Source: Caldisericia bacterium (GTDB taxonomy: Bacteria > Caldisericota > Caldisericia > UBA6126). From it: 59,068 bases of DNA. Under the pieces are notes generated by a model. The model had not been told where the DNA came from and searched no databases. It worked only from the letters and a program-made list of their open reading frames with translations. Below, piece by piece: positions 1,511-51,286 of this stretch (within the stretch, counting starts at the first letter, position 1; each line of letters starts with the position of its first letter). Position numbers and translations under genes: made by a program. The DNA lies in NCBI GenBank assembly GCA_023146045.1, contig JAGLCW010000017.1, positions 1-59,068 on the forward strand. Reading direction: 5' to 3'.

Positions 1511-3208
1511 TTAAAATTTTATCATTATTTCTTTTGTTGAAGGTAAGTATTCAACTACAGAACCAAAAGCTTCAGATATAAACCTTAACGGTACCATAGT
1601 TCTTTGGTTGGTGATAAATGGCTCGCCATCCAGAACAATATATTGTGTATCTTTTGTATCACTTTCTATTCTTGCACTTACACTACCTATTTTTAAAAAG
1701 ACATGCGTGCCCACAAGAGAGATGTGAATCTCCTTTGTTTCCTGATTCCATTCCATGTCTGCTCCATATATATCAGTAATTGTATTTATTGGTACAAACA
1801 CTCTACCGTTTACAATCTGTGGCGGTGTATCTAGTGCAAATTCTTTGTCATTAAAAACTCCCAGAGTCTTCCCTATGGTCAAAACTATTAAGTTGTCTAA
1901 TACTGGTTTGTAAAAGAAAACTGCATACTTTGTTAATTTATTTCCAATGGCATCTTTTGATGTAAAAATTAGCTGGTTGATTTTTTGTATCACCTGGTAA
2001 GATATTTGGAATGTACCATCTTTTTTGACAAGAACTTCAGCTCCATTAAAGCTCAAAAATGATCCATAATCTGTTTTTCCTGTTACTTTAACACTCTTAT
2101 CGCTTGTTACCATTGGAACAGGATCTAGTATTAGCATAGGTGGTGTTGTATCTAATTCTATTTGAATTGTTTCTGATCGAGTATTGTTATGAGCATCCCA
2201 AACTGAAACAATAAATGTGTTCATTCCTTCATCTAGTATTGTTCTATAGTAGAAAACACCATCTTCTTGATCCACTGCTATGCGCTGTTTATTTATGCTT
2301 GCATAGCTTCCTGGTTCTGTTTCGCATAAAAAGAACAATTTGCTTTGTTTTGTTTTGAATCCATCATCTGGAGTTAATATTGTCAATGGTGGAGCTTTTG
2401 AATCTATAGTTTTTTCAACATATATTGAGACTGGGAGTTCTATCTGTCCACCATTGCTTTGAATTCCAATATTCCCCTTGTACGATTGGTTTGGTGGCAA
2501 CAGCGTTGTATCGGCAGTAATTGTAATTTCAGTTTCACCGGTAAACCTTTTTGGAGTTACCTTTAGCCATGGAGTATACGAATCAAGAGTTCCGGATATT
2601 TCTCCTTCTCCTGAATTAAATACTTTAAATGTTTTTGTTGGTATTTTTGCAAATTGTACGTTTCCAAAGTCTATAGACCCTGGATCAACGGACAATATCG
2701 GCTCATGAGAAAGCTCATAAATCTCAATTTCAAAAGAATCTGCTTCACACTGCATTTCCATTAATTCACTATTCATTAAAGTTAGATCACTTATCGCAAA
2801 CAGTGCTTTGCCTATAAATTTTGGTTTGCATATTAATGTAAAAAGCGTTCCGCTAACATCAATACCATCAGATTTTCCCAATATAGCGGATCCAATATTT
2901 ATTATTCCATTTTCAGTAACTTTTCTTTGAAATGAAGCATCTTTGCCATTATCTTGGAAAATACTTCCTTGAATTAAGTCTACGTATTCAACTTTATTTT
3001 GTGGATAAGAAAAGGACAATGAATACCCAAATAAATCTTTTGCGTTGCTAATTTTTACTGTAATCTCGATTTTTTGTTCTTCAACAGAATATTTGGTTTT
3101 TTCCGAAGATATAGTTATGCTTGTTTGCTCTGCAAAAACACTTTTTAGCTGTACATTCAATGCAAAAAAAATAGCCAGAATCGTAATGCTAGCAACTATC
3201 CTTCTCAT
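1511..3208 (-). CDS. Secreted protein with cohesin-like, Ig-like and stalk (copper amine oxidase N-like) domains
   Basis: The start is placed at ATG 3208 because AGGAG lies just upstream and the protein then begins with a clean signal peptide (MRRIVAS, a hydrophobic core, cleavage near VFAEQ). An upstream in-frame start at 3241 is less likely. The order of domains in about 565 residues is: a cohesin-like beta domain (about 20-160), a choice-of-anchor/BACON-like segment with a DFGNVQF motif (about 175-275), one or two Ig-like segments resembling the bacillopeptidase F/glucodextranase B type (about 285-430), and a C-terminal stalk domain (about 440-565, with FVPINTI and TMVPLRFISEAFG). Such proteins are cell-surface factors with unknown partners. 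It overlaps the preceding small gene by 20 nt. Confidence 0.75.
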   Translation of the reverse strand: MRRIVASITILAIFFALNVQLKSVFAEQTSITISSEKTKYSVEEQKIEITVKISNAKDLFGYSLSFSYPQNKVEYVDLIQGSIFQDNGKDASFQRKVTENGIINIGSAILGKSDGIDVSGTLFTLICKPKFIGKALFAISDLTLMNSELMEMQCEADSFEIEIYELSHEPILSVDPGSIDFGNVQFAKIPTKTFKVFNSGEGEISGTLDSYTPWLKVTPKRFTGETEITITADTTLLPPNQSYKGNIGIQSNGGQIELPVSIYVEKTIDSKAPPLTILTPDDGFKTKQSKLFFLCETEPGSYASINKQRIAVDQEDGVFYYRTILDEGMNTFIVSVWDAHNNTRSETIQIELDTTPPMLILDPVPMVTSDKSVKVTGKTDYGSFLSFNGAEVLVKKDGTFQISYQVIQKINQLIFTSKDAIGNKLTKYAVFFYKPVLDNLIVLTIGKTLGVFNDKEFALDTPPQIVNGRVFVPINTITDIYGADMEWNQETKEIHISLVGTHVFLKIGSVSARIESDTKDTQYIVLDGEPFITNQRTMVPLRFISEAFGSVVEYLPSTKEIMIKF

Positions 3209-3425
3209 TGTTTTCTCCTTCTTGAAATTTCCTAGGTTCACTTTGATTTTTAAATTTTAAAGTAGAATCTAAAATTACTGGTAAAGAATAAAAAATTTTT
3301 TTTATGGTTTTTTTTCTCGATTTTGAAAATAATACTCCTTTTATTGGAGTAAACAATATTGCCAACAATAACCCTATCGAAAATCCCGTAATAAGCCCAG
3401 CGATTCTTTCTTTATTTTCCATCAT
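3189..3425 (-). CDS. Small membrane protein, YtxH-like
   Basis: A 78-residue protein with one glycine-rich hydrophobic helix near the N-terminus (about residues 8-27, IAGLITGFSIGLLLAILFTP) followed by a basic stretch and a polar tail. The pattern resembles YtxH/gas-vesicle-like small membrane proteins, but the similarity is only one of composition. The ATG overlaps the stop of the RseC-like gene by 4 nt and its own 3' end overlaps the next gene by 20 nt, which supports a real translationally coupled gene. The exact function is unknown. Confidence 0.6.
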   Translation of the reverse strand: MMENKERIAGLITGFSIGLLLAILFTPIKGVLFSKSRKKTIKKIFYSLPVILDSTLKFKNQSEPRKFQEGENNEKDSC

Positions 3426-3826
3426 ATCTTCTCAACAATTCTAATTACTTTAATTTTGGCTTTAAATTTCTTATCAAAGCTATATGCACAAACAACAGCA
3501 ACGAGAAACAATACACCACCGTAAATAGCTTGCTTGGTGATATCACCATTTCCAAGAATAATTCCAAAAACAAGCATGAATACAGGAAAAAGTAAACTTA
3601 CAACAACTGCTATAATAATTTTTGTGTTCTCTATTAGTAGTTCAACCGTATCTCCGATTTGTGCAAAAGAAATGTCATCAACAAAAACTAGATCGTTATT
3701 TTTGCAATCCGAATGACAACTGTTACATTGTGAACCACAATTTTCTGATTCACCGTTATTTCCTTTTGTCAAAACAACCCAACCGCCACTACCAATAACT
3801 TTTTTTACAACTGCTTCATGAAACAT
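3422..3826 (-). CDS. RseC/SoxR-reducing-system family membrane protein
   Basis: This 134-residue protein matches the RseC_MucC family. It has an N-terminal beta region, a cysteine cluster (C30, C34, C37, C41), then two transmembrane helices (about 75-95 and 102-120) and a basic C-terminal tail. Family members are linked to SoxR reduction, RseC function in the sigma-E response, or Rnf-associated electron transfer; the role in Clostridia is not settled. The four cysteines suggest redox or metal chemistry. GGAGAG stands 4 nt before the ATG. Only 19 nt upstream ends a U-run of a structured RNA, so expression may be controlled by read-through of that element. It is the first gene of the operon ending in ftsE. 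Confidence 0.75.
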   Translation of the reverse strand: MFHEAVVKKVIGSGGWVVLTKGNNGESENCGSQCNSCHSDCKNNDLVFVDDISFAQIGDTVELLIENTKIIIAVVVSLLFPVFMLVFGIILGNGDITKQAIYGGVLFLVAVVCAYSFDKKFKAKIKVIRIVEKI

Positions 3827-3845: not shown

Positions 3846-4025
3846 AAAAAACCCCCAAGATGGCGTCAAAATATAGACCATAGAACCGCACAAAACTTAA
3901 TATGGGAATTAACATATCGTTCGGGTACTAAAGTAAAACAAAAGCGCCACTCCAGATACATTGCAACCGTTATGCAATCCATTTGCGTCCTAGTCTATAC
4001 TCACAACAACCATCGCAGGGTGTTA
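3846..4025 (-). ncRNA. Structured RNA about 180 nt: 6S-like small RNA or attenuating leader
   Basis: A long fold closes the region on the minus strand. The 5' arm (4010-4020) pairs with 3852-3863 in 10 of 11 positions. A second helix pairs 3984-3999 with 3872-3890, about 16 pairs with small bulges. Inside are hairpins at 3960-3978 (ATTGCA/TGCAAT) and 3897-3912 (TTAAT/ATTAA). G-U pairs in the closing helix form only in the minus-strand RNA, which fixes the strand. The 3' arm runs straight into a U-run (3846-3851), so the closing helix itself looks like a long-range terminator. Length, an own promoter and closed ends fit 6S RNA; the position 19 nt before the RseC-like gene fits a cis-acting leader. 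I could not match it to a known riboswitch. Confidence 0.55.
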
Positions 4026-4031
4026 CTTATT

Positions 4032-4059
4032 ATTATACAGAATTTGTAGATTATGAAAA
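4032..4059 (-). promoter_or_regulatory. Promoter of the structured RNA / rseC-like operon
   Basis: On the minus strand a perfect TATAAT (4032-4037) lies 16 nt after a TTTTCA -35 box (4054-4059). A start about 7 nt downstream would be near 4025, exactly where the paired 5' arm of the structured RNA begins. The same TTTTCA -35 appears before the SLH/solute-binding protein gene. Confidence 0.6.
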
Positions 4060-4169: not shown

Positions 4170-4697
4170 ATGATTGTTTCTTTTAAAACATGGACTCCGT
4201 CTATAAGAGAATGTAGTTTTGTGGCACCAGACAGTTCAATTATCGGTGATGTTTTCGCTAAAAGTAATAGCAGCATATGGTATCAAGTCGTACTTAGGGC
4301 TGACCTTGCAAGAATTGAAATTGGTGAAGGAACAAACATTCAAGAATTATCATCCATTCATGTAAAGCATAATAGCCCTGTAATAATAGGAGATTATGTT
4401 ACGGTTGGACATAACTCAATACTACATGGGTGCAAAATCGGTAACAATACACTTATCGGCATGGGAAGCATTATTCTTGATGATGCACAAATTGGCAATC
4501 AATGCATTGTTGGGGCTGGTTCATTGGTAACAGAAGGAAAAGTTTTTCCAGATGGTTGTCTAATTCTTGGTTCTCCAGCAAGAGTAATCAGAGAGTTAAC
4601 GGTTGATGAAAAAAAATCTCTTTTATCTTCAGCTGAACAATATATTAATCTAGCACTTGAAAATAAAAGTGCCGTATTAGGAGAAAATAATGTGTAA
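4170..4697 (+). CDS. Gamma-class carbonic anhydrase-like protein
   Basis: The start at ATG 4170 follows AAGGAG with a good 6-nt spacing; the longer frame to 4128 has no such site. The 175-residue protein is a left-handed beta-helix built from hexapeptide repeats (for example IIGDYVTVGHNSILHGCKIGNN). The family's zinc histidines are visible in SSIHVKH and TVGHNSILHG. Members hydrate CO2 or act as related acyl-binding proteins, and not all of them show carbonic anhydrase activity. The 3' end overlaps the ATG of the pduL-like gene by 8 nt, so the two are very likely translated together. Bicarbonate supply or a role in acyl-phosphate metabolism is an inference. Confidence 0.8.
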   Translation: MIVSFKTWTPSIRECSFVAPDSSIIGDVFAKSNSSIWYQVVLRADLARIEIGEGTNIQELSSIHVKHNSPVIIGDYVTVGHNSILHGCKIGNNTLIGMGSIILDDAQIGNQCIVGAGSLVTEGKVFPDGCLILGSPARVIRELTVDEKKSLLSSAEQYINLALENKSAVLGENNV

Positions 4698-5229
4698 AAC
4701 ACAAATCCAGTGTGGCGTGTCAAACCGTCATATACATGTTTGCCAACAAGATCTTGAAATTCTTTTTGGTAGTGGCTATAAACTTGCAGTTAAAAAAGAT
4801 CTTTCTCAAACTGGACAATATGCTGCAGAGGAAACTGTAAAATTAGTAACAGCAAAAAGTCAGATTGAAAACGTAAGAATCCTTGGACCAGTGAGAAAAG
4901 AAACTCAAGTAGAAATTTCTTTGACAGATACTTTTAAGCTTGGGATAAAAGCTCCATTAAAGGAATCAGGTGATTTAGAAGGTACACCTGGGATTTTAAT
5001 CGTAGGCCCAAATGGCTTTGTATTGATTAACGAAGGAGTAATAGTACCATCTAGACATCTTCATATGAACAAAGTAAATGCAGTAGCACTAAATGTAAAA
5101 GATAAACAAATTGTATCTGTTAAATGCGATGGACCAAGGTCACTAATATTTAACCAAGTTCTAGTACGAGTTAGAGAAGACTTCGTACTAGATTTTCATA
5201 TTGACACTGACGAAGCAAATGCAGCCGGT

Positions 5230-7775
<2,546 letters not shown>

Positions 7776-36438: not shown

Positions 36439-36445
36439 AATAATC

Positions 36446-36767
36446 CCTCGAGTAATCTTTAAGCCAGGTTCTGTGTTCAATTTCTTGAACGGCAATCATC
36501 TATCTTAGCGACTCACCTACAAGCTTGGCGAGCAACCTACAAACGCTTGTCATTGGTCTTGCTCCAGGTGGGGTTTACAAATCCAATCGGTCACCCGATT
36601 GCTGGTGAGCTCTTACCTCGCCATTTCACCTTTACCTGTTTCCAGGCTGTATATTTTCTGTTGCACTTTCCTTAGGGTCACCCCCACTAACCGTTAATTA
36701 GCACCTTGCTCTGTGGAGCCCGGACTTTCCTCTGATATCAATCAGCAATTGCCTTTCATACTCGAGG
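36446..36767 (-). ncRNA. rnpB: RNase P RNA, type A
   Basis: Catalytic RNA of RNase P, about 322 nt. Found by its conserved pieces on the minus strand: GAGGAAAGTCCGGGCTCC near the 5' end, AGGAAAGTGCAACAGAAA, GGTAAGAGCTCACC, AAACCCCACCTGGAGCAAG, and the 3' ACAGAACCTGGCTTA. The ends pair exactly as P1: CCTCGAGTA (36759-36767) with TACTCGAGG (36446-36454), 9 bp. The P15 region matches type A rather than the Bacillus type B. The last bases hold the Shine-Dalgarno of rsmH. Confidence 0.95.
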
Positions 36768-50430: not shown

Positions 50431-51286
50431 TTGTAGCTTCTTTGATTAGCCTATAATCTAAACCAATTGTTCTGGAAGAAACTTTTGGAATAATTGGTAA
50501 TCTTTGCTTGTACAAAGATTTACGACAAAGCTTTAAAACTGATGTTACATGTTCTTTGGAAAAGCCTTTTTCTACTAACTCTTGAAAAGTAAACCTTTTG
50601 TCAATATGCCAAAATAGAATTTGATCAAGTTCGTCATATGTTAATCCAATTTCTTCTTCATCAGTTTGGGTTTCCCAAAGTTCAGCTGATGGAGGCTTGT
50701 TAATAATTTCTTCTGGAACTCTAAAGTAATCAGCCAACGCAAATGCTTGAGTTTTATAAATGTCGCCTAGTGGTAGAATTCCTGCAGCACTATCTCCATA
50801 CCATGTGCTATATCCTATTAGTAGCTCTGTTTTATTACTTGTTCCTATGACTAATGCTTTTTCTCTTGCACTAACATCAAAAAGATTGACCATTCTTAGT
50901 CTTGCAAAAACATTACCTTTTCTAAGTGGGTTTTTAATTGATCTTTCTCCACATAGTGAATCAGCAGTATTCTTTATATTCCATGTTTCAAGATGCAGTC
51001 CTAAATCTTTACTAACCATATTAGCATGATCATCATTTGACAAACCCTTACCGTATGGCATGTACAATAACAATAATTGGTCAGGGTTCAGTGCTTTTGC
51101 GGCAATATAGGATACCAATGTAGAATCCAATCCACCAGACAATGCAATGACTGCTTTAGTAAACCCATATTTATTCATCTCATCTTGAATAAATTTTTCA
51201 AGTACTGTAGAAAGAAATTCTGCATTCTGTTGCAGATATGCTGCTATTTCTTTATTTTTTTTGCCTTTACGGCTATTTTCTTCCAT
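50420..51286 (-). CDS. nadE: NAD+ synthetase, synthetase domain only
   Basis: Converts nicotinic acid adenine dinucleotide to NAD+ with ATP. The 288-residue protein has the PP-loop SGGLDST (50-56) and IGTSNKTELLIGYSTWYGDSAAGILPLGDIYKTQ-like substrate pattern (short pieces GTSNKTE and GDSAAG). It lacks the N-terminal glutaminase of the long NadE, so it would take ammonia, unless served by the nitrilase-family protein next to it. Its ATG overlaps the stop of that gene by one base. Confidence 0.93.
   Translation of the reverse strand: MEENSRKGKKNKEIAAYLQQNAEFLSTVLEKFIQDEMNKYGFTKAVIALSGGLDSTLVSYIAAKALNPDQLLLLYMPYGKGLSNDDHANMVSKDLGLHLETWNIKNTADSLCGERSIKNPLRKGNVFARLRMVNLFDVSAREKALVIGTSNKTELLIGYSTWYGDSAAGILPLGDIYKTQAFALADYFRVPEEIINKPPSAELWETQTDEEEIGLTYDELDQILFWHIDKRFTFQELVEKGFSKEHVTSVLKLCRKSLYKQRLPIIPKVSSRTIGLDYRLIKEATNAP

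Follow-up and report, generated by a model that had tools for sequence, protein, structure and literature searches.

A very probable divergent 6S RNA ahead of an rseC-like gene in a Caldisericia bacterium

Upstream of an RseC-like gene in a Caldisericia bacterium lies a structured RNA of about 180 nt whose two ends pair with each other. Is it a 6S RNA, or a leader that senses a ligand or a protein and decides whether the downstream operon is read? Both alternatives had been proposed by a first-pass annotation of the window, i.e. the whole stretch of 59,068 nt that was analysed (contig JAGLCW010000017.1). 6S RNA is common; it mimics an open promoter and so keeps hold of RNA polymerase. The elements of the locus are the following:

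4032–4059, minus strand: sigma-A-type promoter, TTTTCA (4059–4054), 16 nt, TATAAT (4037–4032)
3846–4025, minus strand: very probable divergent 6S RNA, ~180 nt, ends placed from the promoter and the U-run
3846–3851, minus strand: U6 run immediately 3' of the closing stem, putative termination site
3422–3826, minus strand: RseC-like gene (RseC_MucC, PF04246, E 1.5e-11), ATG at 3826, 19 nt downstream of the RNA
1511–3241, minus strand: gene between rseC and yitT for a 576-aa protein (domains: cohesin, glucodextranase-B-like, Cu-amine-oxidase N-terminal)

The sequence and coordinates of the RNA hold as first described, and its strand, which had not been given, is the minus strand. On that strand the minimum free energy (MFE) is -57.2 kcal/mol (z -3.72), a value equalled by none of 200 shuffles. 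The plus strand folds at a z of only -1.05, little beyond its shuffles, and the plus-strand reading was dropped. This difference agrees with the earlier argument that structure confined to one strand indicates a real RNA. The promoter reported at the RNA start matches at 10 of 12 positions and is the top-scoring site upstream of rseC; in the region overall, promoter-like sites are not in excess relative to shuffles. In the relatives the -10 box recurs 8–12 nt before the CCC at the RNA 5' end. At the other end no local terminator hairpin was found near the U6 run (3851–3846), as the annotation had remarked. The 19-nt gap to the RseC-like gene is also correct. RseC and YitT (PF02588) do follow in that order, except that the 576-aa cohesin-like protein, unmentioned before, intervenes. 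This protein is conserved across the order. On the opposite side, divergent from the promoter of the RNA, 4170–5265 (plus strand) encodes a gamma-carbonic-anhydrase-like hexapeptide protein and a PduL-type phosphotransacylase; these genes adjoin F1 ATP synthase genes, and the block is also present in G001, a member of the same genus.

The pairing of the RNA ends is extensive. The 5' sequence CCCUGCGAUGG pairs with the 3' sequence CCAUCUUGGGG at 10 of 11 positions, and this closing helix is continued by the segments GUU/GAC, UAUAGAC/GUCUAUA and UAGGAC/GUUCUA, so the end-to-end pairing claimed from the sequence is real. Aligned with relatives, the RNA can be divided as follows (all on the minus strand):

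4005–4020: closing stem P1, 5' strand
3852–3867: closing stem P1, 3' strand
3987–3999: P2 helix, 5' strand (UAUAGACUAGGAC)
3872–3886: P2 helix, 3' strand (GUUCUAUGGUCUAUA)
3969–3986: 5' side of the central bubble, equivalent of the pRNA template, where canonical GAGCCAACAC has become GGACGCAAAU (alignments; position assigned by homology)
3887–3904: 3' side of the bubble, without the ACCUG..CAGGU hairpin that 6S RNAs elsewhere in Caldisericia have
3905–3968: terminal stem with a conserved internal loop, GGAGUGG (3953–3947) / CCCGAAC (3925–3919), from covariation and alignment

The flanks of the bubble (P2, GG/CC) are conserved. Folding of the single sequence closes parts of the central bubble, and the MFE structure of the window RNA has three hairpins in place of the terminal stem; the 6S-like fold is ~8 kcal/mol worse (-49.2 vs -57.2 kcal/mol). 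In the window genus P2 may, as modelled, be extended by more pairs around a bulged G.

Rfam does not recognise this RNA. Gathering and permissive scans of the window gave no meaningful match at the locus, 6S and riboswitches included, and RF00013 (gathering score 46.4 bits, a detection threshold) found zero 6S RNA in the whole genome to which the window belongs. None of the Rfam cis-regulatory models (riboswitches, leaders) matches the RNA at its gathering score, which answers in the negative the suggested comparison with all riboswitch models. The suggested RF00013 search is likewise negative on the window sequence, and alone would have misled. In the relatives RF00013 detects 6S RNA widely in the class, but in 0 of the 5 genomes of family f1, that of the window. 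Elsewhere in the window a bacterial RNase P RNA of class A lies at 36445–36764 (minus strand, 232.8 bits).

The identity of the RNA was reached through relatives and not through the Rfam model. A DNA search of the relatives returned one orthologue, that of G001, 73% identical and with shared gene order. In G005, of the same order as the window, the RNA at the corresponding place scores 57.5 bits with RF00013, above the gathering score, and directly precedes the orthologues of the RseC-like (1.6e-15) and cohesin-like (1.2e-53) genes. A search for RseC in 49 genomes was combined with the RF00013 results on the relatives; those with a 6S–rseC arrangement compared here are Caldisericia by database record. 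RF00013-matching RNAs stand just upstream of rseC in families f2, f3 and f4, and across f1–f4 rseC begins 4–34 nt behind the RNA (distances taken from where the model match stops; the rseC start of G002 is not fixed). In f5, 6S RNA lies apart from rseC, at 4.5 kb against 59 kb on contig C5 in G008 and on different contigs in G012. Thus rseC is not an obligate partner of 6S RNA. At two f5 loci (L021 and L022) the 6S 3' end comes ~6–18 nt before a protein gene other than rseC, so that a gene close behind 6S RNA may be a general feature of Caldisericia.

Covariance models link these families. R1, built from the window and G001 alone, recovers the 6S RNA of G005 (38.6 bits, E 3.8e-8) and matches the RNA of G002, of the same family (59.9 bits, E 8e-14), as well as f4 6S RNAs (E 1e-5 and 2.8e-4) that RF00013 also matches; on G003 it gave no match at E 5. 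With R3, built from five genomes of the order (window, G001, G002, G003 and G005) and run on 41 whole genomes, the only matches outside the order fell on RF00013 loci, one each in G012, G015 and G038 (E 3.6e-7 to 2.6e-6), which represent three other families. R3 also matches the 6S RNA of f7, in a different class of the phylum (E 3e-8), and in chosen loci it recovered the f3, f4 and f7 6S RNAs with identical ends. The hold-out model R2, made without the window and G001, points to the right place at the window locus with 13.2 bits (E 0.007–0.009), and a chance match in a coding frame at 50551 reaches 13.4 bits. As the signal from the canonical side is this weak, it is the intermediates, the gene order and the covariation that carry the case for 6S RNA. 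A second 6S candidate, on contig C135 (19 bits), was ruled out because it lies within a coding frame.

The intermediates are found in other genera of f1. The RNAs upstream of rseC in G002 and G003 keep GACCAACAU, near canonical UUGAGCCAACAC, where the window has GGACGCAAAU; judged on sequence, they bridge the gap between the window RNA and canonical 6S RNA. In the alignment with relatives, neither the canonical pRNA-template motif nor the 3'-bubble hairpin can be recognised in the window genus, and their loss is probably the reason why Rfam misses the RNA.

The closing and terminal stems of the proposed rod both covary among relatives. In 16 sequences 89.7% of the cells of the closing stem are paired and 8 of 14 pairs show two-sided changes; its covariation is 0.374, against 0.152 ± 0.026 in shuffles (which, here and below, ignore kinship among the sequences), and does not exceed 0.094 when the partners are slid. 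The five members of the order alone give a modest covariation signal for this stem. For the terminal stem, in five sequences, 86.3% of cells are paired, with two-sided changes in 10 of 16 pairs. Its covariation of 0.619 compares with 0.288 ± 0.064 in shuffles (0/500) and at most 0.213 for slid versions, but the stem had been defined by an RNAalifold consensus built on these very five sequences, which favours it over the slid versions too, so that the argument is the size of the difference and not its mere presence. The three-hairpin MFE fold was rejected, as only 59% of its cells are paired in the relatives vs 86% for the 6S terminal stem. Evolution thus backs a single 6S rod; the single-sequence thermodynamics of the window RNA does not.

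The RNA therefore has homology to accepted 6S RNAs via intermediates (R1 to G005, R3 to RF00013 loci in three families), a closing stem that joins its 5' and 3' ends and is kept by compensation, and a single terminal stem beyond the bubble, supported by covariation though absent from the MFE structure. Because RF00013-positive orthologues share its gene context, R1 and R3 link the families and the stems covary, the RNA running from 4025 to 3846 is very probably a divergent 6S orthologue and no new riboswitch; the first of the two initial alternatives is retained. By homology, it would fold as a rod in which closing stem, P2, central bubble and terminal stem follow one another, and which would imitate an open promoter and hold the housekeeping sigma–RNA polymerase; the polymerase would then use the 5' side of the bubble as template for a short pRNA, with release of 6S RNA. 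This action of 6S RNA is established in E. coli and in B. subtilis; P2, the bubble and pRNA-driven release are described in PMC8876501. With its altered template site and a P2 that is possibly longer, the RNA of the window genus may differ in pRNA sequence and in release.

In size, promoter position, covarying closing stem, P2 and terminal stem the window RNA is like the RF00013-positive 6S RNAs of f2–f5, and like those of f2, f3 and f4 it is placed before rseC. It differs from the f2–f5 RNAs by falling below Rfam detection, by its unrecognisable UUGAGCCAACAC motif and ACCUG/CAGGU hairpin, and by the U-run after its closing stem. The non-canonical 6S candidates of Weissella (PMC8414754) were likewise recognised by place and transcription and barely by covariance search; they belong to another phylum and neighbour rarA, whereas the 6S fold of the window RNA is backed by structure and covariation. 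Ms1 of Actinobacteria (PMC9130861), a 6S-like polymerase-binding RNA, was also found by gene order, but it is ~300 nt long, binds core polymerase and has extra end hairpins, while the window RNA has ~180 nt and is homologous to true 6S RNA.

Could the RNA nevertheless be a ligand- or protein-sensing leader, with termination ahead of the RseC operon governed by its 5'-3' closure? Its 19-nt distance from rseC, the U-run right behind the closing helix, the want of a good promoter in between and the upstream position in f1–f4 would all suit such a leader. But in f5 (G008, G012) the RNA family is found away from rseC, f3 has no U-run, no Rfam riboswitch family matches and the architecture is already explained by 6S homology. 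We thus consider this second initial alternative very improbable. We give as little credence to the idea that, in this genus, a 6S-derived RNA has lost the usual 6S action and been kept for another role, for instance by binding core polymerase like Ms1 or by dispensing with pRNA release. Such a change would fit the replaced template motif and 3'-bubble hairpin in G000 and G001, where the closing stem, the apical internal loop and the promoter persist, and an MFE structure without open bubble; however, the overall rod is maintained by compensatory changes, and bubble sequence varies widely among 6S RNAs.

We hold instead, with high confidence, to a joint reading in which ssrS lies on the minus strand with its own promoter, ends probably at the U-run and heads a 6S–rseC unit with probable readthrough. 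In the window, the one good promoter found upstream of rseC is that of the RNA itself; from this and the 19-nt gap we infer that rseC is probably transcribed by readthrough of the 6S end. Among relatives' 6S 3' ends, the U-run after the stem is present in f1 (window, G001, G002 and G003) and in G011, weak in G005 and absent in f3. Closure-dependent termination, as first suggested, is hence plausible in the window RNA and not class-wide. In G007 (locus L032, ~1880–1900, minus strand) the closing stem continues on its 3' strand into GGGGGAGGTATTATG; its last bases enter GGGAGG ahead of the rseC ATG, so that the likely ribosome-binding site of rseC overlaps the 6S 3' end. It seems unlikely that the closing helix doubles as an attenuator of rseC, i.e. 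that closed 6S RNA leads to a stop at the U-run and unclosed RNA lets rseC be read; if true, 6S folding would be coupled to rseC expression. Among the titles and abstracts searched, no paper reports 6S RNA and rseC as neighbours.

These results extend 6S RNA to a Caldisericia family where standard searches report none, and indicate that an apparent absence of 6S RNA can be divergence. The 6S–rseC arrangement, with its 4–34 nt gap in four families, offers a synteny handle for 6S RNA in a little-studied phylum, and its conservation raises the possibility that rseC expression is tied to the synthesis of 6S RNA.
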